Source: Chrysophaeum taylorii (Eukaryota; Sar; Pelagophyceae; Pelagomonadales; Pelagomonadaceae). From it: DNA of 64,000 bases. Below the pieces are notes generated by a model, which ran no database searches, was not told the origin of the DNA, and saw only the letters and a list, made by a program, of their open reading frames with translations. The stretch spans positions 1-64,000 of the forward strand of contig JAQMWT010000491.1 in NCBI GenBank assembly GCA_029834535.1. Direction: 5' to 3'. Position numbers and translations under genes: made by a program. This document shows positions 2,101 to 56,222 of this stretch, piece after piece; within the stretch, counting starts at the first letter, position 1, and every line of letters begins with the position of its first letter.

Positions 2101-2274
2101 GAGTTTCGTCGAGATAGACGAACGGCTTGGCGGTAAGGTTCAAGCTAAAGACACCGCTGGAGCACAAGCCTTCAATTTCTTTGCGAATCGAAGCGATATG
2201 CTTTAACTTATCTTCTTCGCTGAGTCCTTTGAGTTCAACAATCTTCGCAGGCTCATAGACGATATCTTCAGCAG

Positions 2275-26228: not shown

Positions 26229-26229
26229 G

Positions 26230-33027: not shown

Positions 33028-33340
33028 TGCAGAGAAATCTGCTGCCTCTTACCCTTATCCGTCCGTTGAGAACGTGATCTCTTCCTTACCCTTCTTCTTC
33101 CTTTCTACACAATCTAATAGTCCTCTGATTTGTGCCTACGCTCATCATCATGGTCTAGCGCGCCCCGAGGTATGTAGCACTATACACTTAACCTTTCTCG
33201 TGTAGTTCTAGATGCCGCCTGTCGTGTTCTGAGGATATAGGGAACATAACCTTTCATTCCCCGAATTAACCTTCCAGACGTTCACGATGAGACGGGATGG
33301 TTTCCCAGGTGACTTACCACTGCTTGCTAAATGCTCTGCA
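33028..33340 (+). repeat. R6 3' LTR
   Basis: It is 313 bp, TGCAGAG...CTCTGCA. It differs from the 5' LTR at about 5 positions. Confidence 0.9.
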
Positions 33341-33355
33341 TTCTGGTAAGAGGAA

Positions 33356-34828
33356 ATGAACGAGTTATGGGAGAGGTCCGTTACTTCCGAGAATGGCGAA
33401 GACCAGGATCCCCTACCAGCGCTGATTCCCTCCGAGATTGTCTTGGAGGAAGAGCGGAAGCCGCCAGATAAAGAGGCTGCCGCGAGCGTTACGTCGATGA
33501 CGCCAACAACAGATGATACGAGAGCTCAAGCCGCGGTATCGATGCCCAACCCCGGAGATGAGCGAGTCAGAGCCCGATGTGCTCACACTTCGTTGACGCC
33601 GCGAGACGGCAAGACGATCGAAGATGATTTGGTTACCCTCCGTTGTTTAGATACGGGCACTCTTACGTTTATAGCCTGTCACATCTACAGGAATCGTGAC
33701 GGACCGAAATTCTCGACGACCATCGGTGTCGATGGAATGGCAAATGTTTCTTATATTTGCCGAGAAATGGTCAGAAAGTTGGCCAAAGATCAGCTGATTT
33801 TCGATGAAGGCGAACTTCCGAGTAAGCGCAAGCTGTACGGATCAGGGTTGAATACGACGACGATCTTTCGTTGGATCGCGATTCGGGTCGCCCTCGCCGA
33901 CAACATCGCCGCCCCCATTGTCGCTATTGTAGCCGATACGAACTATCTGTTCCTGTTGGAAGGGCGCGATATACGAGTTTTAGGAGCCGTCGTGGACTAT
34001 CCCAACGATCGGATCTGTTTTTATCGAACCCAAGTCGTCTACGGGCGCAAGAAGATTAAGTTCAAGGATGAACGAATCGATGCACCAATCGTGACCTTTC
34101 GATCTATTTACGGTCGGGATCCGATAACCGTACCGATTTACAATCATCAACACGATGCCTTTCGGAAGAGTCTCGACCTGGTCAAGACTCGAGTTTACGC
34201 TCGTTTGAGCACGATTAAAGATCTCCGAAGCCCGCCGCCGGAACGAACGGTAGCCTTGGCCACGCGGGGACATGCTACGACCAAATTCTCCCCAGCTCCG
34301 GGAGAAGGCGCGCGAGAAGTAGTGGCATACGCTGCGCGCACGTTTCAGATCGAGCCCGGTCGAACTTACAATTTACCGGTTATTTTGTCGAAACCTATGG
34401 AAATGGGACAGGTTTTCGTCGCTACGTTTGCTGAGAACGAGCAGCTGGGAGTTGTCGAAGGAATGTGTTCTTCTTGCGAAGAGCACGACCGGTCCGCTGC
34501 TCGGGTTGCGGTTACTGCCGCGGAAGAAGTGCCGACGGTCGTCACTCAAGGCGAAGTCCTTGCGATTGGCGATATCGTTAGGTACGAAGACGAGTTGAAC
34601 GTCTCTACGATCAACGAACTTACGAAAGAATGTGAAGAAGGATACGACAAGGGGAACCTTTCTTTCACCGTTTCCGTCGCTAGTCATTTCACGCATTGCG
34701 ACGCGTCTCCCCCGCCGATGTTGCTGAGTACGGCGCAGAAGGACGCTACGGCCGCTATGACGGACAAGTCCTCCCTCAAACGACCCGAAGGCGACGACGA
34801 TTTTTGCTCGAAGGTCAGAAGAAGATGA
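33356..34828 (+). pseudogene. R5 protease region
   Basis: A 490-residue frame. An aspartic-protease-like module runs from FSTTIGVDGMANVSYICREM through ATRGHATT. A block LLEGRDIRVLGAVVDYPND sits where retroelement proteases have their I-x-G-R-D strand. The tail contains a CSSCEEHDR block. R7 and R8 carry the same region. The active-site assignment is tentative. Confidence 0.5.
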
Positions 34829-34910
34829 AAAGAAATGCCGCGAGATCACCGAAGCGGAGATCCGCCGCCGATACGAAAAGGTTCAATGGCTTCCGATCAC
34901 TTATCGCAAG

Positions 34911-36047
34911 GTGGTGATGCTGTTCAGTGGAGCCGGAGGCAGTACTTTAGGTCTCCAACGAGCCAACGAAATGTGTGGGACGTCGTTTCGAGTCGTGCTA
35001 GCACTCGATGCGTCGGATACCGCCAACCAGATCCACCATAAGAATTTTCCGAACATTCCTGTGGTGCAGCACACACTGTGTGGTCGCTATGTTACAACCT
35101 TGCGGTTGATCGAATCTTATTTACCCTACGCGGAATGGTCGTCGTCGATGTGTGTCGCGTCGCCACCCTGCGTACACTCCGCTCTGTGCAACTTGACTTC
35201 CAGAGATGTTGGGAAGGGAGTCACCGCTACCCACTGGACGATGAAATTATGCAAGATGGCTGGTTTCTTCATGTGGTTGATAGAGCAGGAGGCCTCGATT
35301 ATTTCTTACGTTGCACGTTTGCACCCTTACGTGTACGTCGTCAATTTTTACGACATAACGCCCAGTTTAATGAGCTGTCGCGTGCGATTGTTGGTTTCCA
35401 GCCATCCGCTCCATTTGCGCGCAGTTCCAAAGACTTGCAGGAATATGCAACAAGAGTTCGCCGCAGCACTTGGCTACGCCGACGAACGACATTTACTTCA
35501 GATGAACAATTTAGGATCATCACGAGCCGCGACAGACGCAGCTTACACCGTTACGCGTGTCCCGCTTCGCGTAGGACCGCACCGTTCCGATTACAGATCT
35601 CTGAATCTGAAAATGACTTCGGAGTTGCTGACGATGCCCCTTGATTTTGATTGGGCCGGCTTCTCCAGGACGACCTCGTTGAAACACTTGGCGTCCGTCG
35701 TGCCACCAGACACGATGACCTTATTAGTACTCGATCTGCACAACTCTGTGACCAAGGATTTTCACCTGAGCGGCGAAGCTTTGCCGTCCGCGTTGAGTCC
35801 TGCAGACCGACCGTTTGATTATTATTTGCAAATTGATGAAACCACCCTTCGTCACGTACAAGTTCCGCTGTTAAACACGCGCACACGTGTCGTAAGATGG
35901 GTGTCGACTGATGATCTCCAAGATCGCACCAAATGGAAACCTCCAGAGGTACCGTTGATTCCGCCTGCAACAGATGAGCCGGGGACGTCTCATGCTTCTT
36001 CTGCTGCCCCCCCGACAACCAAATTTGGACGTTCCGCCAGATCCTGA
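34911..36047 (+). pseudogene. R5 cytosine-C5 methyltransferase-like domain
   Basis: A 378-residue frame opens with motif I MLFSGAGGSTLGLQRA, the F-x-G-x-G loop that binds S-adenosylmethionine. Motif II follows (VVLALDASDTANQIHH), then motif IV with ASPPCVHSA (PPC catalytic loop), a motif VI-like FFMWLIEQ and a motif VIII-like FYDITPSLMSCRVRLLVSS. The following 150 residues may hold target recognition. It lies between protease and reverse transcriptase in all three gypsy copies. In R8 it is in one continuous frame with the protease, showing it is part of pol and not a chance neighbour. Fossil copy. Confidence 0.8.
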
Positions 36048-37938
36048 GCGAGATCGGGAACCGAAGATTAAGAGCGAGCCGAGTGTTCGTGTCAAAGGCG
36101 AGAGGATCAACAAAAGCCACCCGGAAGTGAGACTAAAATATGAGAAAAAGTTCGATGTGCCATGGAAAGATGCGCCGCGCGATGCTGAGGGTGCACCGCT
36201 GCCGCAAACTCCCGAGCATGTCAAGGACAACGAAGCCATGAAAGTTCAAATTCCTACGAAGGAAGAAGTTGACAAGGTTGTTCAGGAGCTGGGAATTCCT
36301 GACAATCCGCACTTAGATGATGAGGCGAAACTGATGCTCCGTCACTGTGTGCAATATTCTTGGGCCTCTTTCGACCCGATTATGAGACTTGTGGACTCGC
36401 CTCCTGTGTCTCTACGATTCAAAGACGCGAATCCGCGACCGATTAAGATGACGCACTACCGATTGACGCCTACGAAGCTCGATTGTCTCCGCAAGCAGAT
36501 CAGCGAGTGGTGCCGGGATGGAGTCGTTCGTCCGGCCAACTCACCTTGGGGCTTTCCTGTGTTGATGCTTCCGAAGAAAGCTGAGATTGGGACGTCAAAC
36601 GCGTTCCGTGCTGCAGTTGACTTACGTCAGCTCAACGATCAATTGGTCAATGACAGTTGGCCGAACATTCGACAAGATGATGCTTTAGCTTTTCTCGCCA
36701 TGCGACGATGGCGGACATGCATTGATATTAGATGGGGATACCACAACCTTCGTCTGGATCCGGCAGCGCAAGACGCTGTCACGATGGTTAGCCCACTTGG
36801 CGCTCATAGTTTCTTGCGATTACCTCTAGGTGTGAAGACGGCCGGAGCTCTTTTCTGCAAGCAAATGGCGAGCGACCTTTCGAAATGGATGTATCGAGAC
36901 TTGGTTGCGTTTGTTGACGATATTATGATGGGATCCGACGATCTTCATCGACATTTACAAGTTTTGATCGAAGTGATGTGTCATTTGGCACAGAGAGGGT
37001 ACAGCGGTCGAACCGCGAAGTTCCACCTTCTCAAGGATGATATAGAATTTCTGGGACACATTTCTACCCCAGAAGGCTTGAAGCCGAATCCGAAGACGCT
37101 GGAAGCACTGCAGAAGATGCCGATTCCAGGTACTTTACCGAATACTTCCCCGAAGACCCAGATACGCTCTTTCATCGGCATGAGTAATTACTGCCGGCGA
37201 TATGTGAAGGGCTACTCGAAGATCGTGGAACCGCTGAGACGATTATGCCTCGAAGGTGTAAAGTTCGAGTGGACGCCCGAGTGTCAGAAAGCTTGGGATA
37301 CGATTATTGAAGCTTTGGTTGATTCCCGTGGAGTCTACCACCCCGATTATGATCTGCCTTTTCAGATCCGATCCGATGCTTCCAAGGATGGACTTGGAGC
37401 ATATCTCTTCCAGATTGTCGAAGTCAAGGACGATGCCGGAAGAGTGACTCGAGAAGAACGAGTGATTGAATACTGGAGCCGAGCTGTGCCGAAGGAGATG
37501 CGCAATTATGAGCCCCGTCGGTTAGAGCTGCTGGCAGTTATACTTTCTCTAGAGCACTTTCGAGCCTACATCGAAGGGCACCGGACTGTTTTGGAGACCG
37601 ATCACCGAAATTTGACGTTTTTACGTAAGGCGACGCACTCGTCTGGGCAGCTTGCTCGTTGGGCGATGCGCCTCGCCAATTTTGACCCTGAACTTGGTTA
37701 CAAGCCGGGAAAGTCACCGGGAATGAGTATCCCTGACTGTCTCTCCCGCAATCCGATAGATCATGTCATCGAGACTGACGAGTTTGGAGAACCTTTGAAC
37801 CACGCTTATTTGGTGTTCCAAGAGCTTCCCCGACCCGTTGATGACCGAGGAGTTCCCGCCTCCGGCTGCCACTTCATAATGTCGTTTACGACCGAACTGC
37901 CGGAAGACGAGGAAGAAGATCCTGAAAGGATCCGATAA
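35974..37938 (+). pseudogene. R5 reverse transcriptase-RNase H
   Basis: Ty3/gypsy reverse transcriptase: AAVDLRQLND, LPLGVKTAGALFCKQM and the catalytic box VAFVDDIMMG, then the connection GHISTPEGLKPNPKT and FIGMSNY. RNase H follows with IRSDASKDGLGAYL, RRLELLAVILSLEHFR and LETDHRNLTFL. A chromodomain-free tail follows. Confidence 0.9.
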
Positions 37939-38282
37939 AATTGGCTACGTCTCACGCTACGAGACAACGTCGGAAGAACCGTGCGCGCGATAGCCACAGG
38001 ATCTTCAAGGACGCAGCCGCTTACAAAGATTATATCGATAAGATACCCGATAATATGACGCTCGCGAGATCGCACGTGAGCAAAATCTGAAGATACTTGC
38101 GAGGATAGCGCTACCGAATGGCCCAAGGTCAGACGCCGCGACGTTCCCGAGCGAACGAACGATACGAAGTCGTTAAAAGACGTTCTTTACCGCATTTCTG
38201 CTGATTTGCACCCGATGATTGTTGCCCCTGCTACGTTGCGCAGGCGCATTATTCGACTCTACCATGACACTCCGGTTAACGG

Positions 38283-38295
38283 TGGTCGTATGGGA
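38283..38295. other. spacer at R5/R7 inverted junction
   Basis: tggtcgtatggga separates the R5 arm end (ccggttaacgg, to 38282) from its inverted counterpart in R7 (ccgttaaccgg, from 38296). The arms are homologous for about 4.9 kb on each side, with scattered differences. Confidence 0.85.
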
Positions 38296-38499
38296 CCGTT
38301 AACCGGAGTGTCATGGTAGAGTCGAATAATGCGCTTGCGCAACGTAGCAGGGGCAACAATCATCGGGTGCAAATCAGCAGAAATGCGGTAAAGAACGCCT
38401 TTAACGACTTCGTATCGTTCGTTCGCTCGGGAACGTCGCGGCGTCTGACCTTGGGCCATTCGGTAGCGAATATCCTCGCAAGTAGCATCAGATTCTTGC

Positions 38500-40590
38500 T
38501 CACGTGCGATTTCGGCAAGCGTCATATTATCGGGTATCTTATCGATATAATCTTTGTAAGCGGCTGCGTCCTTGAAGACCTGTGGCTCATCACGCGCACG
38601 GTTCTTCCGACGTTGTCTCGTAGCGTGAGACGTAGCCAATTTCATCGGATCCTTTTCAGGGTCTTCGTCTTCGTCTTCCGGCAGTTCGGTCGTAACAAAC
38701 GACATTATGAAGTGGCAGCCGGAAGCGGGAATTCCTCGGTCATCAACAGGTCGGGGAAGCTCTTGGAACACCAAATAAGCGTGGTTCAAAGGTTCTCCAA
38801 ACTCGTCAGTCTCGATGACATGATCTATCGGATTGCGGGAGAGACAGTCAGGGATACTCATTCCCGGTGACTTTCCCGGCTTGTAACCAAGTTCAGGGTC
38901 AAAATTGGCGAGGCGCATCGCCCAACGAGCAAGCTGCCCAGACGAGTGCGTCGCCTTGCGTAAAAACGTCGAGTTTCGGTGATCGGTCTCCAAAACAGTC
39001 CGGTGCCCTTCTATGTAGGCTCGAAAGTGCTCTAGAGAAAGTATAACTGCCAGCAGCTCTAACCGACGGGGCTCATAATTGCGCATCTCCTTCGGCACAG
39101 CTCGGCTCCAGTATTCAATCACTCGTTCTTCTCGAGTCACTCTTCCGGCATCGTCCTTGACTTCGACAATCTGGAAGAGATACGCTCCAAGTCCATCCTT
39201 GGAAGCATCGGATCGGATCTGAAAAGGCAGATCATAATCAGGGTGGTAGACTCCTCGGGAATCAACCAAAGCTTCAATAATCGTATCCCAAGCTTTCTGA
39301 CACTCGGGCGTCCATTCGAACTTTACGCCTTCGAGGCATAATCGTCTCAGCGGTTCCACGATCTTCGAGTAGCCCTTCACATATCTCCGGAAGTAATTAC
39401 TCATGCCGATGAAAGAGCGTATTTGGGTCTTCGGGAAAGTATTCGGCAAAGTACCTGGAATCGGCATCTTCTGCAGTGCTTCCAGCGTCTTCGGATTCGG
39501 CTTCAAGCCTTCTGGGGTCGAGATGTGTCCCAGAAATTCTATATCATCCTTGAGAAGGTGGAACTTCGCGGTTCGACCGCTGTACCCTCTCTTTGCCAAA
39601 TGACACATCACTTCGATCAAAACTTGTAAATGTCGATGAAGATCGTCGGATCCCATCATAATATCGTCAACAAACGCAACCAAGTCTCGATACATCCATT
39701 TCGAAAGGTCGCTCGCCATTTGCTTGCAGAAAAGAGCTCCGGCCGTCTTCACACCTAGAGGTAATCGCAAGAAACTATGAGCGCCAAGTGGGCTAACCAT
39801 CGTGACAGCGTCTTGCGCTGCCGGATCCAGACGAAGGTTGTGGTATCCCCATCTAATATCAATGCATGTCCGCCATCGTCGCATAGCGAGAAAAGCTAAA
39901 GCATCATCTTGTCGAATGTTCGGCCAACTGTCATTGACCAATTGATCGTTGAGCTGACGTAAGTCAACTGCAGCACGGAACGCGCTTGACGTTCCAATCT
40001 CAGCTCCTTTCTTCGGAAGCATCAACACAGGAAAGCCCCAAGGTGAGTTGGCCGGACGAATGACTCCATCCCGGCACCACTCGCTGATCTGCCTGCGGAG
40101 ACAATCGAGCGTCAATCGGTAGGGCGTCATCTTAATCGGTCGCGGATTCGCGTCTTTGAATCGTAGAGACACAGGAGGTGAGTCCACAGGTCTCATAATC
40201 GGGTCGAAAAAGGCCCAAGAATATTGCACACAGTGACGGAGCATCAGTTTCGCCTCGTCATCTAAGTGCGGATTGTCCGGAATTCCTAACTCCTGAACAA
40301 CCTTGTCAACTTCTTCCTTCGTGGGAATTTGAACTTTCATGGCTCTGTTATCCTTGACATGCTCAGGAGTTTGCGGTAGCGGTGCACCCTCAGCATCGCG
40401 CGGCGCATCTTTCCATGGCACATCAAACTTTATCTCATATTTTAGCCTCACTTCCGGGTGGCTTTTGTTGATCCTTTCGCCTTTGACACGAACACTCGGC
40501 TCGCTCTTGATCTTCGGTTCCCGATCTCGCTCAGGATCTGGCGGAACGTCCAAATTTGGTTGTCGGGGGGGCTCAGCAGAAGAAGCATGA
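38500..40590 (-). pseudogene. R7 reverse transcriptase-RNase H
   Basis: Same motifs as R5 (AAVDLRQLND, VAFVDDIMMG, IRSDASKDGLGAYL, LETDHRNSTFL), lying in a 1015-residue frame (38259-41306) that also covers the methyltransferase C-terminal half. This again shows methyltransferase and reverse transcriptase joined in one pol reading frame. Confidence 0.9.
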
Positions 40591-41740
40591 GACGTCCCCG
40601 GCTCATCTGTTGCAGGCGGAATCAACGGTACCTCTGGAGGTTTCCATTTGGTGCGATCTTGGAGATCATCAGTCGATACCCATCTTACGACACGTGTGCG
40701 CGTGTTTAACAGCGGAACTTGTACGTGACGAAGGGTGGTTTCATCAATTTGCAAATAATAATCAAACGGTCGGTCTGCAGGACTCAACGCCGACGGCAAA
40801 GCTTCGCCGCTCAAGTGAAAATCCTTGGTCACGGAGTTGTGCAGATCGAGTACTAATAAGGTCATCGTGTCTGGTGGCACGACGGACGCCAAGTGTTTCA
40901 ACGAGGTCGTCCTGGAGAAGCCGGCCCAATCAAAATCAAGGGGCATTGTCAGCAACTCCGAAGTCATTTTCAGATTCAGAGATCTGTAATCGGAACGGTG
41001 CGGTCCTACGCGAAGCGGGACACGCGTAACGGTATAAGCTGCGTCTGTCGCGGCTCGTGATGATCCTAAATTGTTCATCTGAAGTAAATGTCGTTCGTCG
41101 GCGTAGCCAAGCGCGGCGGCGAACTCTTGTTGCATATTCTTGCAAGTCTTTGGAACTGCGCGCAAATGGAGCGGATGGCTGGAAACCAACAATCGCACGC
41201 GACAGCTCATCAAACTGGGCGTTATGTCGTAAAAATTGACGACGTACACGTAAGGGTGCAAACGTGCAACGTAAGAAATAATCGAGGCCCCTGCTCTATC
41301 AACCACATGAAGAAATCAGCCATCTTGCATAATTTCATCGTCCAGTGGGTGGCGGTGACTCCCTTCCCAACATCTCTGGAAGTCAAGTTGCACAGAGCGG
41401 AGTGTACGCAGGGTGGCGACGCGATACACATCGACGACGACCATTCCGCGTAGGGTAAATAAGATTCGATCAACCGTAAGGTTGTAACATAGCGACCACA
41501 TGTGTGCTGCACCACAGGAATATTCGGAAAGTTCTTGTGGTGGATCTGGTTGGCGGTGTCCGACGCATCGAGTGCTAGCACGACTCGAAACGACGTCCCA
41601 CACATTTCGTTGGCTCGTTGGAGACCTAAAGTACTGCCTCCGGCTCCACTGAACAGCATCACCACCTTGCGATAAGTGATTGGAAGCCATTGAACCTTTT
41701 CGTATCGGCGGCGGATCTCGTTTCGGTGATCTCGGGGCAC
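40590..41740 (-). pseudogene. R7 cytosine-C5 methyltransferase-like domain
   Basis: Motifs as in R5: MLFSGAGGSTLGLQ, VVLALDASDT, IASPPCVHSA and TPSLMSCRVRLLVSS. Part shares a continuous frame with the downstream reverse transcriptase. Confidence 0.78.
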
Positions 41741-41846
41741 TTCTTTTCATCTTCTTCCGACCTTCGAGCGAAATCGTCGTCGCCTTCGGGCCGTTTGAGG
41801 GGGGACTTGTCCGCCATAGCGGTCGTAGCGTCCTTCTGCGCCGTGC

Positions 41847-44495
41847 TCAGCAACATCGGCGGGGAGACTCGTCGCCATGCGTCAAATGACTAGCGACGGA
41901 AACGGTGAAAGAAAGGCTCCCTTTGTCGTATCCTTCTTCACATTCTTTCGTAAGTTCGTTGATCGTAGAGACGTTTAACTCATCTTCGTACCGAATAATA
42001 TCGCCAATCGCGAGAACCTCGCCTTGAGTGACGATCGTCGGCACTTCTTCCGCGGCAGTAACCGCAACCCGAGCAGCGGACCGGTCGTGCTCTTCGCAAG
42101 AAGAACACATTCCTTCGACAACTCCCAACTGCTCGTTTTCTGCAAACGTAGCGACTAAAACGTGTCCCATTTCCATAGGCTTCGACAAAATAACCGGTAG
42201 ATTGTAAGTTCGACCGGGCTCGATTTGAAGCGTGCGCTCAGCGTAAGCCACTACTACTCGCGCGGCTTCTCCCGGAGCTGGGGAGAATTTGGTCGTAGCA
42301 TGTCCCCGCGTAGCCAAGGCTACCGTTCGTTCCGGCGGCGGGCTGCGGAGGTCTTTAATCGTGCTCAACCCAGCGTAAACTCGAGTCTTGACTAGGTCCA
42401 GACTCTTCCGACAGGCATCGTGTTGATGATCGTAAATCGGCACGGTTATCGGGTCTCGATCGTAAATAGATCGAAAGGTCACGATGGGTGCATCGACTCG
42501 TTCGTACTTGACTTTAATCTTCTTGCGCCCGTAGACGACTTGGGTTCGATAAAAACAGATCCGATCTTGGGGTAGTCCACGACGGCTCCTAAAACTCGTA
42601 TATCGCGCCCTCCCAACAGGAACAAATAGTTCGTATCGGCCACAATAGCGACAATGGGGGGCGGCGATGTTGTCGGCGAGAGCGACCCGAATCGCGATCC
42701 AACGAAAGATCGTCGTCGTATTCAACCCCGATCCGCACAGCCTGCGCTTAATCGGAAGTTCGCCTTCATCGAAAATCAACTTATCTTTGGCCAACTTTCT
42801 GACCATTTCTCGGCAAATATAAGAAACATCTGCCATTCCATCGACACCGATGGTCGTCGAGAATTTCGGTCCGTCACGATTCCTGTAGATGTGACTGGCC
42901 ATAAACGTAGGAGTACCCGTATCTAAACAACTCTGGGTAACCAAATCATCTTGGATCGTCTTGCCGTCTCGCGGCGTCAAAGCAGTGTGAGCACATTGGG
43001 CTCTGACTCGCTCATCTCCGGGGTTGGGCATCGATACCGCGGCTTGAGCTCTCGTATCATCTGTTGTTGGCGTCATCGACGTAACGCTCGCGGCAGCCTC
43101 TTTATCTGGCGGCTTCCGCTCTTCCTCCATGACAATCTCGGAGGGAATCAGTGCTGGTAGGGGATCCTGATCTTCGTGGTTCTTGGAAGCAAAGGACCTC
43201 TCCCATAACTCATCCATTTCGTCATTCCAGAATGCATCCGTAGATTCATTCGTACTTGGTTGATCATCCTTATCATCGGCGATCGGTTCCGTGTCGGCTG
43301 CGGCTTCGAGTCCGTAGCTGAGCGGTTGTTCTGGTGGCTTCTTTAGCAAGAAGTTCCGAGTTCTCGTCCACCAATCCTGCAGGTTCCACGTTGGATCGTC
43401 TTCGTCTTCATCGAGAACGCCGCTAATCTTCTTCTTAAACCTATCCTTTTCTTCCGGCGGCGTGTCCGTGGCTCGATCCGTCGTAACCGAAACTGTTTCG
43501 GGGGGGTCCGCAGGAAAAGATGGCGTCGTCCCCGACGTCAACTCTATCGTAAGATCGTCGTCTGCATCACTCGCTATGATCATCGTCTCGTCCGTCGAAT
43601 GATCACACGAGCTATCACTGCAGAAATCCTTGTCTGGCTCACAGCCAGTTCGGTCGCCAAAGGTCGTCCCTGGAGGGTCCAAAGATAAACCGATAGCGTC
43701 GAGGGCTTCCTCGTCAAAAACAAACGGTGCGTCGTCCGTGGACGACTCGTCAAGTAACGTTATCGCGGACACTGGTTCACAAGGTGTAGCTTCTTCATCT
43801 TCCGAATCTGAATCGTCTTCCCAGTATCGTGGAGCTTCGAGGTCATCGCTCGACTCTTCGAGTTCATCGCTCGACATATCCTCATAAATCTGTGCCAAAG
43901 ACCGACGACCGGTCAGCACGTCGTTGGGTGGCTCGTCCATCGGCGGGCGAGCAAGATCGTCGAATGCGGCCGCGGCAAGGGCGTCGGCTGCGTCGTCGGT
44001 GCGGGTGTCCGTGTTCGGGTACACCATCACTCCTAATGGTAACTGTTGACCGCAAGGGGTCGTAAACGCGAACGTTGCAGACGAATGTCCCGAGTCTTCC
44101 CGGTAACGACCATCGTCCGAATTTCGATCGCGAGATCTTCGTCGCCGGCGGCGGCGTGAATGTCTGCTAGAGCCCCGGCTTTCTTTCCGTCGGCGCGGGC
44201 GCGAGCTGCTACGCCTCTTGTCGCGGCGTCGGGGGCTCCGGCTATCTCGACGGCCCGGTCGTGTCGAAGACGATCGGCCGTGTCCATCCTTCAAGTGCTT
44301 CACGGAATCCACAACCGTGGTCAGCTGCGTGCCCATATCGTTGAGTCTGCTCTGAATATCGTGAGCGGCGCTCGAACCGAGGGTGGCATTGGAACTGCCG
44401 TCGTCACGCGAATGATTATCTTTCTTTTGTCGGCTCTCCCATCGTCCCCGAGAGATGGGCTTTTTACTGTCTTCGATGTACTTACACATCGCCAC
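41847..44495 (-). pseudogene. R7 gag C-terminus, linker and protease
   Basis: An 882-residue frame: an S/R-rich segment (SSSTRPGRRDSRSPRRRDK), a long acidic linker with FTTPCGQQLPLG and SSDELEESSDDLEAP, then the protease-like region (FSTTIGVDGMADVSYI) and the CSSCEEHDR tail. It is the counterpart of R5 14000-15037 plus 33341-34828 without R6, and so documents the empty site. Confidence 0.65.
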
Positions 44496-44784
44496 ATAAT
44501 AGTCGTCAGGCTCTCGGTTGCAAATGACCCGGTTCCCGTGTTCATCCTTGTCGTGGGTCGTTAAGAAAAACCCACAATCCTTGCATGTGCTCTCGAACCA
44601 CTTTTCGGATTCTCTTCTAGACGCAATGCTTCATATTTCGTCGTTTTATCTTTCGGTCCCGAGGCGAGCGCTCGTCCTCCGCGTCCAGACGGTGGCTTCT
44701 GCGGCTTCCCGCCCGACGGATTCGTTGAATTTCGGCTGTTCTTCTCCGCCATGGCGGTTGCGAAATCGTTCTCGAGCCGTGTAA

Positions 44785-46101
44785 TCAATGACAACGTAGA
44801 CGTAAACGTTTATACGTCGTCGGGTGCCCGCTGCGCATGGTTCGCACGCGGGATTTCAATTCGCTGGACTCCAGTCCACGTATCAAGTAAGAAATGATCT
44901 CCACGTCGTTGAGATCTCGGTTGGCCACAGAGCAGTACGCCATGGCCTCTTTCTGAAATTTGATGCAATAAGTATGCACGTGGCGTTCCCCAGATCGTTT
45001 CGGAACGGTCGCTTGGGTCGTGCCTTGCAGTTTCCGTAGCGATTCCTCTGCCGTCATCGGCAATGGGCAACTCTCCCGGAAATATCTCAAAATCTTGAAG
45101 CAGCACTTCTCATTCAGTCGTCGTAATCGTCGTACCACTGAACCATACTCCTCGTCATCCATATCCCAACGTAAATAAAAAGACGCTGGGTGATCGAGAT
45201 CTTTACACAGGTCTTCGTACTTCTTCAAGTGTTCTCGAAAAATCGGTGCGACTGTGTCGCGCAGGCTCGCGGGCAGCAGGTACCGCAGCTTCTCCATGCT
45301 AAAATGGTCTTCGGCTAACGTACTCATCACCGCGCCCGCATCTAAATCGAACTGGTCCTGATCGCGTCCATCAAGAACAAGTTTAAAAGTTTCGGTCTTT
45401 AATCCGGAGGTCGATCGCCGATCCTTGTTGCGATCGTGTTTGGCTAACGCGCTGGCGAACCGATCCGTGAAAGCCATCAAGAACTCTTGGTTGTCGATTC
45501 TTCCGTCGCCAAGCGTCTCCTCCTTTTCTTCGTAATCGTCGTCTTCATAGCGCGGCTTCCTAGCTTTCGCGCGTGATCGTGTAGTTGGCGGCTCTTCCTC
45601 AGCTCGGGACCCCGGGCTGCTCGCTCGCCTCGATCGACTCGGCGTACGCAACTCGTCCCTTTCTCGGGTCAACGAATTGACTTGATCTTGGAGGTCGTCT
45701 GCTCGAGCGTTGGCCCTCCGCACTTGCTCTCGTAATTCTTCTGCCTCCTTCCGCTGTAGCCGCTCCTTTCGATCGTTTTCTTCTTCTATTTGTTTCAAAA
45801 GTCGTTCCTGCGCGCGTTCGTTCTCTTCGCGTAACGCCCGCAAATGAGCCTCGTAGAACTCATTCATTCCCGTTACATCCGGGGTTCGTGCACGCGTTGA
45901 CGGGGCTGTCGGTCGTCCTCCAGGCCGTCTCTCCGCGGGTTCGCCGTTGTTGTAGTCTAGCTCTTCTTCCTCGTTGTCAGCTTCAGTGTCGTGCTCTTCA
46001 TCATCGTTATCATCGTCATCGTTCCCCTCGCTCGTCTCATCCTGACGGCTTGGCGGTTCGTCATATCGCATCTGCTCGTCGGCAGCATCATCGTCTTCCA
46101 T
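44785..46101 (-). pseudogene. R7 gag (coiled coil and capsid-like)
   Basis: The ATG at 46101 gives 438 residues: acidic N-terminus (1-60), E/R-rich coiled coil (about 75-160), PRR-SRR linker, then a helical capsid-like region (about 205-430; EFLMAFTDRFASAL, LAEDHFSMEKLRYLLPASL, KRSGERHVHTYCIKF) ending near YLIRGLESSELKSRV, the usual end of gypsy capsid. R8 is homologous throughout; R5 only in the first 175 residues. Confidence 0.75.
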
Positions 46102-46536
46102 ATCGGCTCTGGCTCGTTCTAATCGGCCGAGATCAGAGCGGGTCCAAAATGGTTGAGTCGTCGTCGTTCTCGTGCTCCTTCGACTCTGGGACTTCTACTC
46201 GTCCACGACACGCGTAATATCGTCGTCGCGTGGGTCTTCCACCGACCGATCTATCAGTCCGGTGGCGGCAGAATTTGTCTCTGCCCGGCAATCAAGGCCT
46301 CAGTGAGTTGCGATCTCACTCCGCTCGCCTGCGGCAGCGGTACCCGGGTTGCGCGTCGGCTAGAACCGAATCGCGCGTCGTCTCCTCTGACGACTAACGT
46401 ATCCGGCGGGGAACTTCCCCACGGCAGTGGTCCTCCTGGAACTCTTCGTCGGCGCGCTTGATCAGGGCGCGCACGGCTTGTCCGGACCGTGTAGAGAATG
46501 CAAGATGCACTCGTCCGCTGCGACCAATATGGTCGC

Positions 46537-46558
46537 TCGAATCTCATATCCTCCACCA
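46537..46558 (-). promoter_or_regulatory. R7 primer-binding site
   Basis: The minus strand reads TGGTGGAGGATATG then AGATTCGA, two bases after the LTR. It is complementary to a tRNA-like 3' end with CCA and a TTCGAATC T-loop. Confidence 0.6.
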
Positions 46559-46560
46559 CC

Positions 46561-46896
46561 TGTGGCGTAAGGAGAATTTAGGCCTACCTGGCGTGCCTTC
46601 GAATCCTGGCTCGCCGCTCGCGTCCGTGCCCTTGATGGAGTCACTGGACGAGGATGGCCGTTCTCTCGCCACACAACCAAAAACAACTTCCGTGCCTGGT
46701 CCTCACAACTTGAGGATCGGCTGTTGCTTTATGATTAAGATATTATCGAAACACAGAAATCAGGGTGTCACATGTCACGGAAAAGGAAGATGATGTCATA
46801 AAGAAAACTGACATCATCATGACGGAGTAGGGTGCCCCTGATAAGGGGGGGGGCTAGGAGAGGGGTAAGCCTTAGGAGGCGGGAGTTGCCGCCACA
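46561..46896 (-). repeat. R7 5' LTR
   Basis: It is 336 bp, TGTGGCG...CGCCACA, homologous to 11604-11936 and 56903-57234. The GATGATGTCA/TGACATCATC stem-loop is at 46789-46818. Confidence 0.9.
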
Positions 46897-47740: not shown

Positions 47741-48002
47741 ATTCTTCGACGTACGGCAACCCGCGGAGGGGCACGACCGACAGCCCCGTCAACGCGTGCA
47801 CCCCGAATGTATCGGAATGAACGGATCGCAGAGGCTCATTGCGGGCGTTACGCGAAGAGAACGAACGCGCGCAGGAACGACTTTAAAACAAATAGAAGAA
47901 GAAAGTCGAAACGAGCGGCTACAGCGGAAGGAGGCAGAATAATTACGAGCAAGTGCGGAGGGCCAACGCTCGAGCAGATGACCTCAAGATCAAGTTAATT
48001 CG

Positions 48003-49348
48003 TTGACCCGAGAAAGAGACGAGTTGCGTACGCCGGGTCGATCGAGGCGAGCGAGCAGCCCGGGGTCCCGAGCTGAGGAAGAGCCGCCAACTACACGATC
48101 ACGCGCGAAAGCTAGGAAGCCGCGCTATGAAGACGACGATTACGAAGAAGGAGGAGACGCTTGGCGACGGAAGAATCGACAACCAAGAGTTCTTGATGGC
48201 TTTCACGGATCGGTTCGCCAGTGCATTAGTAAACACGACCGAAACAAGGATCGGCGATCGACCTCCGGATTAAAGACCGAAACTTTTAAACTTGTTCTTG
48301 ATGGACGCGATCAGGACCAGTTCGATTTAGATGCGGGCGCGGTGATGAGCACGCTAGCCGAAGACCATTTTAGCCTGGAGAAGCTGCGGTACCTGCTGCC
48401 CGCGAGCCTGCGCGACACAGTCGCACCAATTTTTCGAGAACACTTAAAGAAGTACGAAGACCTGTGTAAAGATCTCGATCACAGCGTCTTTTATTTACGT
48501 CGGGATATCGACGACGAGGAGTATGGTTCAGTGGTACGACGCTTACGACGACTGAATGAGAAGTACTGCCTCAAGATTTTGAGATATTTCCGAGAGAGTT
48601 GCCCATTGCCGATGACGGCAGAAGAATCGCTACGGAAACTGCAAGGCACGACCCAAGCGACCGTTCCGAAACGATCTGGGGAACGCCACGTGCATACTTG
48701 TTGCATCAAATTTCAGAAAGAGGCCATGGCGTACTGCTCTGTGGCCAACCGAGATCTCAACGACGTGGAGATCATTTCTTACTTGATACGTGGACTGGAG
48801 TCCAGTGAATTGAATCCCGCGTGCGAACCATGCGCAGCGGGCACCCGACGACGTATAAAACGTTTACGTCTACGTTGTCATTGATTACACGGCTCGAGAA
48901 CGATTTCGCAACCGCCATGGCGGAGAAGAACAGCCGAAATTCAACGAATCCGTCGGGCGGGAAGCCGCAGAAGCCACCGTCTGGACGCGGAGGACGAGCG
49001 CTCGCCTCGGGACCGAAAGATAAAACGACGAAATATGAAGCATTGCGTCTAGAAGAGAATCCGAAAAAGTGGTTCGAGAGCACATGCAAGGATTGTGGGT
49101 TTTTCTTAACGACCCACGAAAAGGATGCACACGGGAACCGGGTCATTTGCAACCGAGAGCCTGACGACTATTATGTGGCGATGTGTAAGTACATCGAAGA
49201 CAGTAAAAGCCCATCTCTCGGGGACGATGGGAGAGCCGACAAAAGAAAGATAGTCATTCGCGTGACGACGGCAGTTCCAATGCCACCCTCGGTTCGGGCG
49301 CCGCTCACGATATTCAGAGCAGACTCAACGATATGGGCACGCAGCTGA
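48003..49348 (+). pseudogene. R8 gag (capsid and zinc-binding segment)
   Basis: The capsid part matches R7 (LAEDHFSLEKLRYLLPASL, KKYEDLCKDLDH). Then an RNA-binding candidate WFESTCKDCGFFLTTHEKDA with a later VIC gives a C-x2-C-x5-H-spaced cluster, not the usual CCHC knuckle. Confidence 0.7.
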
Positions 49349-49640
49349 CCACGGTTGTGGATTCCGTGAAGCACTTGAAGGATGGACACGGCCGATCGTC
49401 TTCGACACGACCGGGCCGTCGAGATAGCCGGAGCCCCCGACGCCGCGACAAGAGGCGTAGCAGCTCTCGCGCCCGCGCCGACGGAAAGAAAGCCGGGGCT
49501 CTAGCAGACATTCACGCCGCCGCCGGCGACGAAGATCTCGCGATCGAAATTCGGACGATGGTCGTTACCGGGAAGACTCGGGACATTCGTCTGCAACGTT
49601 CGCGTTTACGACCCCTTGCGGTCAACAGTTACCATTAGGA

Positions 49641-52600
49641 GTGATGGTGTACCCGAACACGGACACCCGCACCGACGACGCAGCCGACGCCCTTGCCGCG
49701 GCCGCATTCGACGATCTTGCTCGCCCGCCGATGGACGAGCCACCCAACGACGTGCTGACCGGTCGTCGGTCTTTGGCACAGATTTATGAGGATATGTCGA
49801 GCGATGAACTCGAAGAGTCGAGCGATGACCTCGAAGCTCCACGATACTGGGAAGACGATTCAGATTCGGAAGATGAAGAAGCGAGACCTTGTGAACCAGT
49901 ATCCGCGATAACGTTACTTGACGAGTTGTCCACCGACGACGCACCGTTTGTTTTTGACGAGGAAGCCCTCGACGCTATCGGTTTATCTTTGGACCCTCCA
50001 GGGACGACTTTTGGCGACCGAACTGGCTGTGAGCCAGACAAGGATTTCTGCAGTGATAGCTCGTGTGATCATTCGACGGACGAGACGATGATCATAGCGA
50101 GTAATGCGGACGACGATCTTACGATAGAGTTGACGTCGGGGACGACGCCATCTTTTCCTGCGGACCCCCCCGAAACAGTTTCGGTTACGACGGATCGAGC
50201 CACGGACACGCCGCCGGAAGAAAAGGATAGGTTTAAGAAAAAGATTAGCGGCGTTCTCGATGAAGACGAAGACGATCCAACGTGGAACCTGCAGGATTGG
50301 TGGACGAGAACTCGGAACTTCTTGCTAAAGAAGCCACCAGAACAACCGCTCAGCTACGGACTCGAAGCCGCCGCCGACACGGAACCGATCGCCGATGATA
50401 AGGATGATCAACCAAGTACGAATGAATCTACGGATGCATTGTGGAATGACGAAATAGATGAGTTATGGGAGAGGTCCTTTGCTTTCAAGAACCACGAAGA
50501 TCAGGATCCCCTACCAGCCCTGATTCCCTCCGAGATTGTCATGGAGGAAGAGCGGAAGCCGCCAGATAAAGAGGCTGCCGCGAGCGTTACGTCGATGACG
50601 CCAACAACAGATGATACGAGAGCTCAAGCCGCGGTATCGATGCCCAACCCCGGAGATGAGCGAGTCAGAGCCCAATGTGCCCACACTGCTTTGACGCCGC
50701 GAGACGGCAAGACGATCCAAGATGATTTGGTTACCCTGAGTTGTTCAGATACGGGTACTCCTACGTTTATGGCCTGTCACATCTACAGGAATCGTGACGG
50801 ACCGAAATTCTCGACGACCATCGGTGTCGATGGAATGGCAGATGTTTCTTATATTTGCCGAGAAATGGTCAGAAAGTTGGCCAAAGATAAGCTGATTTTC
50901 GATGAAGGCGAACTTCCGATTAAGCGCAGGCTGTGCGGATCGCGGTTGAATACAACGACGATCTTTCGTTGGATCGCGATTCGGGTCGCTCTCGCCGACA
51001 ACATCGCCGCCCCCCATTGTCGCTATTGTGGCCGATACGAACTATTTGTTCCTGTTGGGAGGGCGCGATATACGAGTTTTAGGAGCCGTCGTGGACTACC
51101 CCAAGATCGGATCTGTTTTTATCGAACCCAAGTCGTCTACGGGCGCAAGAAGATTAAAGTCAAGTACGAACGAGTCGATGCACCCATCGTGACCTTTCGG
51201 TCTATTTACGATCGAGACCCGATAACCGTGCCGATTTACAATCATCAACACGATGCCTTTCGGAAGAGTCTCGACCTAGTCAAGACTCGAGTTTACGCTA
51301 GGTTGAGCACGATTAATGACCTCCGCAGCCCGCCGCCGGAACGAACGGTAGCCTTGGCTACGCGGGGACATGCTACGACCAAATTCCCCCCAGCTCCGGG
51401 AGAAGCCGCGCGAGTAGTAGTGGCTTACGCTGAGCGCACGCTTCAAATCGAGCCCGGTCGAACTTACAATCTACCGGTTATTTTGTCGAAGCCTATGGAA
51501 ATGGGACACGTTTTAGTCGCTACGTTTGCAGAAAACGAGCAGTTGGGCGTTGTCGAAGGAATGTGTTCTTCTTGCGAAGAGCACGACCGGTCCGCTGCAC
51601 GGGTTGCGGTTACTGCCGCGGAAGAAGTGCCGACGATCGTCACGCAAGGCGAGGTTCTCGCGATTGGCGATATTATTCGGTACGAAGATGAGTTAAACGT
51701 CTCTACGATCAACGAACTTACGAAAGAATGTGAAGAAGGATACGACAAAGGGAGCTTTTCTTTCACCGTTTCCGTCGCTAGTCATTTGGCGCATTGCGAC
51801 GCGTCTCTCCCGCCGATGTTGCTGAGCACGGCGCAGAAGGACGCTACGACCGCTATGGCGGACAAGTCCTCCCTCAAACGGCCCGAAGGCGACGACGATT
51901 TCGCTCGAAGGTCGGAAGAAGATGAAAAGAAGTGCCCCGAGATCACCGAAACAAAGATCCGCCGCCGATACGAAAAGGTTCAATGGCTTCCAATCACTTA
52001 TCGCAAGGTGGTGATGCTGTTCAGTGGAGCCGGAGGCAGTACTTTAGGTCTCCAACGAGCCAACGAAATGTGTGGGACGTCGTTTCGAGTCGTGCTAGCA
52101 CTCGATGCGTCGGACACCGCCAACCAGATCCACCACAAGAACTTTCCGAATATTCCTGTGGTGCAGCACACACAGTGTGGTCGCTATGTTACAACCTTAC
52201 GGTTGATCGAATCTTATTTACCCTACGCGGAATGGTCGTCGTCGATGTGTATCGCGTCGCCACCCTGCGTACACTCCGCTCTGTGCAACTTGACGTCTAG
52301 AGATGATGGGAAGGGAGTCACCGCCACCCACTGGACGATGAAATTATGCAAGATGGCTGGTTTCTTCATGTGGTTGATAGAGCAGGGTTCCTCGGTAATT
52401 TCTTATGTTGCACGTTTGCACCCTTACGTGTCTGTCGTCAATTTTTACGACATAACGCCCAGTTTGATGAGCTGTCGCGTGCGATTGTTGGTTTCCAGCC
52501 ATCCGCTCCATTTGCGCGCAGTTCCAAAGACTTGCAAGAATATGCAACAAGAGTTCGCCGCCGCGCTTGGCTACGCCGACGAACGACATTTACTTCAGAT

Positions 52601-52823
52601 GAACAATTTAGGATCATCACGAGCCGCGACAGACGCAGCTTATACCGTTACGCGTGTCCCGCTTCGCGTAGGACCGCACCGTTCCGATTACAGATCTCTG
52701 AATCTGAAAATGACTTCGGAGTTGCTGACAATGCCCCTTGATTTTGATTGGGCCGGCTTCTCCAGGACGACCTCGTTGAAACACTTGGCGTCCGTCGTGC
52801 CACCAGACACGATGACCTTATAG
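49641..52823 (+). pseudogene. R8 protease-methyltransferase polyprotein segment
   Basis: A single frame of 1,060 residues. Residues 1-370: acidic linker. About 400-560: protease-like region (GVDGMADVSYICREM). About 560-770: linker with CSSCEEHDR. About 790-1060: C5-methyltransferase-like domain with MLFSGAGGSTLGL (about 791), LALDASDT, ASPPCVHSA and TPSLMSCRVRLLVSS. This is the best evidence that the methyltransferase is translated as part of gypsy pol. Confidence 0.82.
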
Positions 52824-52887
52824 TGCTCGATCTGCACAACTCCGTGACCAAGGATTTTCACTTGAGCGGCGAAGCTTTGCCTCGGCG

Positions 52888-54132
52888 TTGGGTCCTGCAG
52901 ACCGACCGTTTGATTATTATTTGCAAATTGATGAAACCACCCTTCGTCACGTACAAGTTCCGCTGTTAAACACGCGCACACGTGTCGTAAGATGGGTATC
53001 AACTGATGATCTCCAAGATCGCACCAAATGGAAACCTCCAGAGGTACCGTTGATTCCGCGTGCAACAGATGAGCCGGGGACGTCTCATGCTTCTTCAGCT
53101 GCTCCCCCCCGACAACCAAATTTGGACGTTCCGCCAGATCCTGAGCGAGATCGGGAACCGAAGATCAAGAGCGAGCCGAGTGTTCGTGTCAAAGGCGAGA
53201 GGATCAACAAAAGCCACCCGGAAGTGAGACTAAAATATGAGAAAAAGCTTGATGTGCCATGGAAAGATGCGCCGCGCGATGCTGAGGGTGCACCGCTACC
53301 GCAAACTCCTGAGCATGTCAAGGATAACAGAGCCATGAAAGTTCAAATTCCTACGAAGGAAGAAGTTGACAAGGTTGTTCAGGAGTTAGGAATTCCTGAC
53401 AATCCGCACTTAGATGATGAGGCGATACTGATGCTCCGTCACTGTGTGCAATATTCTTGGGCCTTTTTCGACCCGATTATGAGACCTGTGGACTCACCTC
53501 CTGTGTCTCTACGATTCAAAGACGCGAATCCGCGACCGATTAAGATGACGCCCTACCGATTGACGCTCGATTGTCTCCGCAAGCAGATCAGCGAGTGGTG
53601 CCGGGATGGAGTCATTCGTCCGGCCAACTCACCTTGGGGCTTGCCTGTGTTGATGCTTCCGAAGAAAGGAGCTGAGATTGGAACGTCAAGCGCGTTCCGT
53701 GCTGCAGTTGACTTACGTCAGCTCAACGATCAATTGGTCAATGACAGTTGGCCGAACATTCGACAAGATGATGCTTTAGCTTTTCTCGCTATGCGACGAT
53801 GGCGGACATGCATTGATATTAGAAGGGGATACCACAACCTTCGTCTGGATCCGGCAGCGCAAGACGCTGTCACGATGGTTAGCCCACTTGGTGCTCATAG
53901 TTTCTTGCGATTACCTCTAGGTGTGAAGACGGCCGGAGCTCTTTTCTGCAAGCAAATGGCGAGCGACCTTTCGAAATGGATGTATCGAGACTTGGTTGCG
54001 TTTGTTGACGATATTATGATGGGATCCGACGATCTTCATCGACATTTACAAGTTTTGATCGAAGTGATGTGTCATTTTGGCAAAGAGAGGGTACAGCGGT
54101 CGAACCGCGAAGTTCCACCTTCTCAAGGATGA
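52888..54132 (+). pseudogene. R8 reverse transcriptase
   Basis: Contains AAVDLRQLND, LPLGVKTAGALF and VAFVDDIMMG of a gypsy reverse transcriptase, preceded by the basic, lysine-rich linker EPKIKSEPSVRVKG. Confidence 0.9.
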
Positions 54133-56032
54133 TATAGAATTTCTGGGACACATCTCGACTCCAGAAGGCCTCAAGCCGAATCCGAAGACGCTGGAAGCAC
54201 TGCAGAAGATGCCGATTCCAGGTACTTTACCGAATACTTTCCCGAAGACCCAAATACGCTCTTTCATCGGCATGAGTAATTACTTCCGGCGATATGTGAA
54301 GGGCTACTCGAAGATCGTGGAACCGCGGAGACGATTATGCCTCGAAGGCGTAAAGTTCGAATGGACGCCCGAGTGTCAGAAAGCTTGGGATACGATTATT
54401 GAAGCTTTGGTTGATTCCCGAGGAGTCTACCACCCTGATTATGAACTGCCTTTTCAGATCCGATCCGATGCTTCCAAGGATGGACTTGGTGCCTATCTCT
54501 TCCAGATTGTCGAAGTCAAGGACGATGCCGGAAGAGCAACTCGAGAAGAACGAGTGATTGAATACTGGAGCCGAGCTGTGCCGAAGGAGATGCGCAATTA
54601 TGAGCCCCGTCGGTTAGAGCTGCTCGCAGTTATACTTTCTCTAGAGCACTTTCGAGCCTACATAGAAGGGCACCGGACTGTTTTGGAGACCGATCACCGA
54701 AACTCGACGTTTTTACGCAAGGCGATGCACTCGTCTGGGCAGCTTGCTCGTTGGGCGATGCACCTCGCCAATTTTGACCCTGAACTTGGTTACAAGCCGG
54801 GAAAGTCACCGGGAATGAGTATCCCTGACTGTCTCTCCCGCAATCCGATAGATCATGTCATCGAGACTGACGAGTTTGGAGAACCTTTGAACCACGCTTG
54901 TTTGGTGTTCCAAGAGCTTCCCCGACCTGTTGATGACCGAGGAATTCCCGCTTCCGGCTGCCACTTCATAATGTCGTTTGTTACGACCGAACTGCCGGAA
55001 GACGAAGACGAAGACCCTGAAAAGGATCCGATGAAATTGGCTACGTCTCACGCTACGAGACAACGTCGGAAGAACCGTGCGCGTGATGAGCCACAGGTCT
55101 TCAAGGACGTAGCCGCTTACAAAGATTATATCGATAAGATACCCGATAATATGACGGTTGCCGAAATCGCACGTGAGCAAGAATCTGATGCTACTTGCGA
55201 GGATATTCGCTACCGAATGGCCCAAGGTCAGACGCCGCGACGTTCCCGAGCGAACGAACGATACGAAGTCGTTAAAGGCGTTCTTTACCGCATTTCTGCT
55301 GATTTGCACCCGATGATTGTTGCCCCTGCTACGTTGCGCAGGCGCATTATTCGACTCTACCATGACACTCCGGTTAACGGTGGTCATATGGGACGTCACA
55401 GTACCGTCCAGGCTATCCAAGAACGATTTTGGTGGCCCCACATGTTGAACGAAGTTGGAGTCTTCATTGCTGAATGTTTAGTTTGCCAGAAAGCTCGTAC
55501 GCCGGAGCCGAAACGAGCCGGACTCTTGCAACAGCCCGTCTACGATGGTGATGGCGCTGTTCTTTGCATGGATTTATTTGGACCCTTGCCCAGCGCTGGT
55601 CCCGAGACGTATCTTCTAGTGTTTTTTGATCCGTTCTCTCATTTCTTGATTCTGGATGTTTTGAACGATAAGACTGCTGAGTCCGTCCTCGAGTCTTTAG
55701 TCATTAACATCCTCCTCAAGGGCTACTTGCCCCAGATGATTCGTACCGACAACGGTAAAGAGTTCGTGAACAAGCTGATGCGCGAGTTTTGCCATCTCTT
55801 CAACACACGATACCAAACTACGATTCCTTATCATGCCCAGTCGAACCCGGCTGAGCGTGTTAACCGATTTTATCAAGGCCTTCCTCCGTGCTTGCCTTCA
55901 GGGCCGGAACATCACGGATTGGCCCGACTTTGCCCATTATATTGCGTTTTGTTACAACCGCAAGTTTATTCCAGGCACGCAGATTTCTCCCTTTATGCTG
56001 CGCCTGAACCGTCAGCCGATGCTGCCTACTGA
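54077..56032 (+). pseudogene. R8 RNase H and integrase
   Basis: RNase H: IRSDASKDGLGAYL and LETDHRNSTFL. Integrase: zinc-binding HDTPVNGGHMGRH ... CLVCQKAR, then catalytic-core blocks CMDLFGPLP, MIRTDNGKEFVN and SNPAERVNR in DDE order. R5 and R7 both stop at the HDTPVNGG block. Confidence 0.88.
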
Positions 56033-56222
56033 CTACACGCTTATGGACTTTGATACACGACTGTTGCCGAAGACTCGCTCTGATGCAGTCGCCGAAACTC
56101 GTGAACGATTGAAGTATTATACGAAGATCGTCCGCGAGGCTCGTGATAAAGCTTTGAAGAAACAACGACTGGCCTACAATGCCGATGATGTCGATGTTGA
56201 ATACAAGGAATGATCGCACGTT

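Follow-up and report, generated by a model that had tools for sequence, protein, structure and literature searches.

Retrotransposons that carry a silencing enzyme have been reported from two eukaryotic lineages, with cytosine-C5 methyltransferases (MTases) borne by LINE and DIRS elements in the dinoflagellate Symbiodinium and by a Gypsy element in Klebsormidium nitens (PMC5890265). In Symbiodinium, hundreds of retrotransposon-borne DNMTs occur in one genome and are spread over several element classes; the MTase of SymbioDIRS-Dnmt3 lies in frame with the reverse transcriptase (RT), and the dN/dS of the element MTases is like that of RT (PMC5890265). For SymbioDIRS, de Mendoza et al. propose that cDNA is methylated, and in yeast two of the SymbioDIRS domains were able to methylate CG sites de novo (PMC5890265). 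SymbioLINE-Dnmt and the Klebsormidium element, KnitGypsy-Dnmt3, gave no DNA methylation in yeast, a result that the authors call inconclusive, and the same paper gives no significant CG difference between SymbioDIRS-Dnmt3 and DIRS elements without a DNMT (PMC5890265). KnitGypsy-Dnmt3 is of Gypsy type, holds its C5 MTase in the Pol frame and is under purifying selection with Ka/Ks < 0.2 (PMC5890265), and the family described here is alike in these three respects.

The locus lies in a window of 64,000 nucleotides (the whole stretch of DNA analysed), in which the first-pass annotation had placed three gypsy copies, R5, R7 and R8. All three are present where it put them and all carry a C5 MTase domain; by their sequence, they are members of one Ty3/gypsy LTR family with this domain upstream of RT. 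The precedents that it named, Symbiodinium and Klebsormidium, agree with the published account (PMC5890265). The window contains the following features.

33337..38296, plus strand: R5 gypsy copy, lacking both ends and without LTR, 95.3% against R8 50435-55394
33350..34828, plus strand: R5 gag/protease-like frame preceding the MTase, without Pfam match
34869..35828, plus strand: R5 C5-MTase domain, PF00145 25.9 bits for 34869-35990, bacterial profile about 34 bits
34920-34940, plus strand: R5 motif I, LFSGAGG
35157-35183, plus strand: R5 motif IV, ASPPCVHSA, Cys codon 35169-35171
35274-35288, plus strand: R5 motif VI-like WLIEQ
35376-35402, plus strand: R5 motif VIII-like CRVRLLVSS
35607-35639, plus strand: R5 motif IX-like LKMTSELLTMP
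35691-35708, plus strand: R5 motif X-like ASVVPP
35974..37938, plus strand: R5 RT and RNase H in a frame other than that of the MTase, RVT_1 1.8e-12, RT_RNaseH 4.8e-26
38295..46896, minus strand: R7 gypsy copy with 5' LTR, 3' truncated, tail-to-tail with R5
46561..46896, minus strand: R7 5' LTR (TGTGGCG...CGCCACA)
41291..41707, minus strand: R7 MTase N-terminal part with motifs I-IV, tblastn 97.9% to R5, PF00145 22.2 bits
40590..41321, minus strand: R7 MTase C-terminal part, sharing frame 38259-41315 with RT and RNase H
47773..57234, plus strand: R8 gypsy copy, 3' LTR at 56903-57234, no 5' LTR seen
51966..52820, plus strand: R8 MTase residues 1-285, within frame 49461-52823, PF00145 27.6 bits
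52855..53085, plus strand: R8 rest of the domain region, in the next frame, 88% (tblastn) to residues 298-374 of R5
52888..54132, plus strand: R8 reverse transcriptase frame, RVT_1 2.2e-9
54077..56032, plus strand: R8 RNase H and integrase (H2C2, rve)
11604..11936, plus strand: further LTR of the gypsy family, 93.8% to the R7 LTR, leader to about 12508
1425..3206, minus strand: pol fragment of an MTase-bearing copia family, tblastn with L022/L023 pol, 74.6-96.1% by piece

R5 and R7 abut tail-to-tail at an identical element position (window 38240-38350) and form a palindrome. Identity between its arms is 95.9% across 4,961 columns and 97.2% in the inner 1.5 kb; since the arms differ to this extent, the palindrome does not come from a single molecule simply read as a fold-back. 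A different Ty1/copia element, with RVT_2, a weak SH3_retrovirus match and no MTase match, occupies 26218-32872, and a stretch related to it lies on the opposite strand at 60985-64000. A repeat unit at 3460-6651 and 9730-11603 has two copies, separated by 785 bp, and an inverted partner.

The copies differ in how their frames hold the domain. In R5 the whole domain lies within a single frame (34761-36047, plus strand), and in R7 it is split by a frame change, with residues 1-140 at 41707-41291 and residues 132-374 in the minus-strand frame 38259-41315, so that the C-terminal part does share one frame with RT, as had been claimed. The domain of R8 was said to share its frame with the upstream protease; this holds for residues 1-285, which are joined to the gag/protease-like part in a frame of 1,120 amino acids (49461-52823), and the rest lies in the next frame. 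The description of the domain as sitting between protease and RT needs a similar adjustment: its place upstream of RT is borne out, and the protease is a protease-like stretch read by eye, because no Pfam model matches upstream of the MTase.

Several observations identify the domain as a C5 MTase. Parts of all three copies exceed the PF00145 cut-off of 22 bits, with 24.8 and 25.9 bits for two cuts of the R5 frame, 27.6 bits for the MTase piece of R8 (22.6 in the whole frame) and 22.2 bits for the N-terminal piece of R7; the RT frame of R7, searched alone, has no PF00145 match. The PPC loop coincides with the cysteine of motif IV in the alignment with the bacterial family, and thus both the profile match and the position of the loop speak for the identification. 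On a profile built from protein P0008 and 28 bacterial relatives (29 sequences), the three MTase frames scored 36.6, 33.9 and 30.6 bits among the 171 stop-to-stop frames of at least 100 amino acids in the window, the next frame scoring 3.2; none of 2,000 shuffled versions of the R5 domain went beyond 4.6 bits, the score of the best, and the host enzymes DNMT5 and DNMT2 gave 36.8 and 29.5 bits on the same profile. Motif I, the ASPPCVHSA of motif IV and the motif VIII-like CRVRLLVSS were located in R5 as first read; the ENV of motif VI is absent as such and reads Glu-Gln.

The anatomy of the domain was examined in an alignment (A1) of 15 stop-free gypsy copies, hand-picked from 110 genome matches. 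PF00145 was found in all 15 (E <= 0.01), and among five long frames it exceeded its cut-off in R8 (22.6 bits) and L019 (25.3) and fell just below it in L015 (19.9), L017 (20.3) and L021 (20.9). In hhalign, A1 matched the 29 bacterial MTases over motifs I-IV with Prob 97.1 and E 5e-11, the PPC cysteine lying on motif IV, and a global alignment to the bacterial family extended over 273 columns with Prob 96.5. Cys101, Arg171 and Arg173 are identical in 15 of 15 gypsy copies, and the two arginines, the R-x-R of motif VIII, are also invariant across R5, R8 and 23 bacterial rows (22 of the 28 loci plus P0008) of a MAFFT-fitted alignment. Glu139, followed by Gln in the motif VI-like position, is likewise the same in all 15, and is placed on ENV by one alignment and opposite a gap in another. 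Motifs IX-X are colinear in the HMM and MAFFT alignments, the HMM stretch having negative bits; for the half after motif IV, 10 of 200 column-shuffled controls were as good, and for the motif IX-X piece alone, which was picked after inspection, 1 of 200. By sequence, then, motifs I-IV including the catalytic PPC are secure and motifs IX-X are weak. A structure model from the single sequence had a pLDDT of 32.7, and the model resembles C5 MTases only with bacterial MTases in its alignment, for which reason we regard the fold as consistent, non-independent support.

Relatives of the domain are distant. Matches to PHROG methyltransferase families had E values of 3e-6 to 7e-8, TIGR00675 gave 18 bits with a cut-off of 100.65, and among solved structures the nearest by sequence are DNMT2 chains, at weak E values of 0.07-0.08. 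In collections that contain few eukaryote genomes or none, a protein search with R5 returned none at E <= 0.001 among 7,631 candidates; when A1 was used as a profile (7,992 scored), one protein was returned at E 0.11, P0008, a PF00145 protein with bacterial relatives; and in a scan of viral contigs, one stretch fitted the pattern and none was confirmed. In a tree holding no DNMT1/3/6 rows, the gypsy MTase grouped with DNMT2 (82/61) on very long branches, and in a tree without DNMT2 the gypsy and copia MTases were flagged as long branches that meet. Because the branches are extremely long and DNMT1/3/6 rows are absent, we set these trees aside for the question of origin.

The initial picture of a gypsy family with an MTase in pol thus stands, and what it missed is the number of copies in the genome, the selection on them and a second family of copia type. 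At least 110 matches to the R5 domain, some partial and all 78-100% identical, were scored in the genome from 1,104 first-look candidates, so that the count is a lower bound; the matched stretch is free of stops in 86 of the 110 and contains stops in 24. The element measures about 10.3 kb, with LTRs of 335-336 bp that begin and end TGTGGCG...CGCCACA. On contig C5, two copies are open over 3,063 and 3,067 amino acids; in each, the MTase-bearing half joins the MTase to RVT_1, RNase H, H2C2 and rve within a single frame, and PF00145 scores of 19.9 and 20.3 bits place the MTase there just below the cut-off. Pfam matches confirm the order RT - RNase H - integrase in pol; the gag/protease-like third of the frames gave no match to a Pfam domain. 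A TGG-type sequence directly follows the LTR at the position of a tRNA primer site, and an exact search for the tRNA end read from it gave no match.

The LTR pairs are 98.2% (C5 544105-554379), 100% (C5 520043-530330) and 99.7% (C477 577-8899) identical. Of these three copies with both LTRs, the one on C477 has a 5-bp target duplication, GCACA; the flanks of the two C5 copies, inspected for a duplication of their own, do not match, and because such flanks are absent the identity of their LTRs may reflect recombination. The 5' flank of one C5 copy has AGGAG as its last letters and the 3' flank of the other has it as its first, a hint that the two have recombined. The C477 copy (L019) looks like a deletion derivative, since its frame of 2,393 amino acids keeps MTase and RT, and matches to RNase H and integrase are absent. 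Matches to the gypsy family share contigs with light-harvesting genes (C351, C390, C268, C96 and C552), and the family therefore belongs to the algal genome. The contig pairs C10/C297 and C25/C521 have near-identical coordinates of repeat matches, which suggests duplicated haplotigs and means that the copy counts may be slightly inflated.

The gypsy copies form two clades, between which the MTase protein is still 78-82% identical. Across the 63 non-independent pairs (7 x 9) between the clades, MTase dN/dS had a mean of 0.094 (0.076-0.132) at a mean dS of about 1.4, which is near saturation. In one pair, L017/L028, with the stretches of L028 positioned by alignment with L017, dN/dS was 0.061 in the RT stretch (479 codons), 0.085 in the RNase H/integrase stretch (456 codons) and 0.320 in the gag/protease-like part (1,174 codons). 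The lowest MTase dN of this pair (0.035) falls in codons 101-150, the block that starts at the catalytic Cys; dS was computable in six of the eight windows. Within clades, MTase dN/dS rises to 0.256 and 0.124, as decaying copies would lead one to expect. Judged from these ratios, the gypsy MTase domain is under purifying selection.

A second element family of the genome carries another C5 MTase. RVT_2 in the frames of L022-L024 identifies it as Ty1/copia: L023 has MTase at 349-475, rve at 1016-1110 and RVT_2 from 1686 in one frame; L022 has rve at 523-617 and RVT_2 at 1193-1434, with the MTase in a neighbouring frame; and L024 has MTase at 355-492 and RVT_2 at 1686-1848, rve not being listed. 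The rve matches upstream of RVT_2 in L022 and L023 are weak (E 0.005-0.006, below cut-off). When 104 of 668 candidate regions of the genome were scored, 113 matches were obtained, some of which are pieces of one copy; a search of the window for the MTase of this family gave no match. PF00145 is found in all six aligned copies, picked out of 11 fetched loci, with a best E of 4e-10, and hhalign against the 29 bacterial MTases gave Prob 92.3 and E 6e-7. This MTase keeps TLPCQ and ENV, with motif I reduced, and its dN/dS is 0.145-0.215 across a deep split and 0.21-0.71 among closer copies. A profile search with it found none at E <= 1 among 7,999 scored sequences from collections with few or no eukaryote genomes. 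Compared directly, the gypsy and copia MTase profiles gave Prob 0.4%, and the domain stands before RT in gypsy and before integrase in copia. With no direct profile link and different places in pol, separate acquisitions are likely, and on this sequence evidence the copia MTase is probably a second one.

The host has MTases of its own. A DNMT2-like gene has 1g55 as its best match (E 3.9e-39), and a DNMT5-like gene matches a chain of 7r76 at E 1.8e-124; this chain was deposited as Rad8, and we take it to be Cryptococcus Dnmt5. One SRA domain was found in the host genome. The PF00145 list for the genome has 57 entries, of which two are these host genes, 50 lie over copia-family places (49 by the list of copia-family matches and one by a separate search) and five are others (C395:19786, C23:3967, C216:62478, C683:59821 and C670:66519); the list comes from 123 of 474 candidates and is non-exhaustive, since the gypsy family is missing from it altogether. 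On the plastid-like contig C697, rbcL has 7yk5 as its best solved match, and this and the next-best matches are presumably diatom enzymes. Together, rbcL and the light-harvesting genes point to a red-plastid alga as the source of these sequences, and the dinoflagellate spliced leader, searched as an exact pattern, was absent. The light-harvesting gene family is large, with 84 PF00504 matches and close-set copies on single contigs (C88, C539, C390 and C533).

No methylation footprint was seen in the gypsy copies, which were examined for CpG depletion and for an excess of CpG transitions and have neither. CpG observed/expected is 1.10-1.36 in gypsy loci, compared with 1.26-1.46 in eight loci of host genes, and in 23 copies singleton transitions at CpG number 0.065 per site versus 0.081 at other C and 0.100 at other G. 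CpG observed/expected in the copia loci L022-L026 is lower, at 0.99-1.11.

We favour, with moderate confidence, an explanation in which the gypsy family acquired and retained a C5 MTase, the packaged enzyme methylates the cDNA of the element, and the copia MTase is a second acquisition. A C5 MTase would have entered the gypsy polyprotein between the gag/protease-like part and RT before the split into two clades. As part of Gag-Pol, the enzyme would be packaged together with RT, and its natural substrate in the particle would be nascent element cDNA, methylated at cytosines. Incoming copies could thereby bear a host-like mark, and the host DNMT5/SRA system could maintain that mark after insertion. 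Such persistence is conceivable because the host has a DNMT5, an enzyme of maintenance type in Cryptococcus, where it is described as having maintenance activity and no de novo activity (PMC9246332). Since selection has kept the MTase domain, both element families may have the capacity to place epigenetic marks on the DNA of the element or of the host.

The main rival is RNA methylation, or more broadly a C5-MTase fold kept for a non-DNA role, be it methylation of the element RNA or of its tRNA primer or nucleic-acid binding within Gag-Pol, and we give it a real but minor share of the probability. DNMT2 methylates tRNA, and the DNMT2 chains that are the closest solved relatives of the gypsy domain, though weak ones, would suit this role, as would the altered ENV and GNxV, the gypsy copies without a CpG footprint and the inconclusive inactivity of SymbioLINE-Dnmt and KnitGypsy-Dnmt3 on DNA in yeast (PMC5890265). 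It fits less well with a catalytic Cys that is the same in 15 of 15 copies and begins the block of lowest dN in the compared pair, or with the CG methylation by SymbioDIRS-Dnmt3 domains in yeast (PMC5890265). Alternatively, the retrotransposon MTases could be the de novo source of methylation, insertions seeding marks that a maintenance-only host DNMT5 copies. This we consider unlikely: the two host genes against 50 copia places in the PF00145 list, the SRA domain and the behaviour of Cryptococcus DNMT5 (PMC9246332) argue for it, but that list missed the gypsy family entirely, the search for DNMT1-RFD ran without a positive control, the maintenance-only character of the host DNMT5 is carried over by analogy from the Cryptococcus enzyme, and the gypsy copies have no footprint. 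A bolder version, which is more doubtful still, would have gypsy and copia independently capture non-DNMT3 C5 MTases, at about 100 copies or more each, with the parasites seeding the methylation landscape and a DNMT5/SRA host only maintaining it.

The domain might also be a passenger, captured a single time, amplified with the element and unused. Stops in the matched domain in 24 of the 110 matches, and the within-clade ratios of the gypsy family together with those of the closer copia copies, which are as in decaying insertions, are what a passenger would leave; a protein 78-82% identical at a dS of about 1.4, with dN/dS near that of RT, makes the idea very improbable. Least credible of all is that the domain is no MTase and that motif I and PPC are a chance resemblance. 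Only some 50-90 residues fit the profiles well, and TIGR00675 stays far below its cut-off, but the separation of the three MTase frames from every other frame and from the shuffles (at the level of motifs I-IV), the presence of PF00145 in all 15 chosen copies and the PHROG matches leave this reading next to no room.

Set against known systems, the family differs from KnitGypsy-Dnmt3 in several ways. The MTase of that element is of the DNMT3 class in its authors' tree (PMC5890265), whereas LFSGAGG and ASPPC here, judged by eye from the motifs, look bacterial or DNMT2-like and unlike DNMT3. The repeats of KnitGypsy-Dnmt3 are arranged as in DIRS and K. nitens has fewer copies than Symbiodinium (PMC5890265), whereas the present family has ordinary LTRs and at least 110 matches, and the host lineages differ. 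The Symbiodinium classes are DIRS and LINE, in place of Ty3/gypsy and Ty1/copia, and Copia elements there have no DNMT domain according to the same paper (PMC5890265). DIRS elements with a Dam-like N6-adenine methyltransferase also hold a DNA methylase in pol, of an unrelated enzyme class (PMC5890265). The best sequence match, over motifs I-IV, is to bacterial and phage C5 MTases (the P0008 family, PHROG 116/363 and, weakly, TIGR00675), from which the gypsy domain differs by a shorter motif VIII-IX stretch, the altered ENV and GNxV, and its fusion into a retroviral-type polyprotein.

What is new here is another lineage and perhaps the first copia element with a C5 MTase; our search of the open-licence literature found no described copia element of this kind. 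An earlier copia case is possible, as a 2025 paper (PMC12344493) mentions DNMT3 in 'LTR Copia and DIRS' elements, citing the 2018 paper, which itself calls the streptophyte element Gypsy and denies a DNMT to the Copia elements of Symbiodinium (PMC5890265). In general terms, Gypsy and DIRS elements encoding Dam and Dcm have been noted in stramenopiles among others (PMC6338049). The present case matters for its compact genome of 70.8 Mb, which combines intact, apparently recent copies with a host methylation toolkit that is simple as far as seen. With a further lineage and two LTR element types added to those already described, the carriage of a silencing enzyme by retrotransposons looks like a recurrent strategy.
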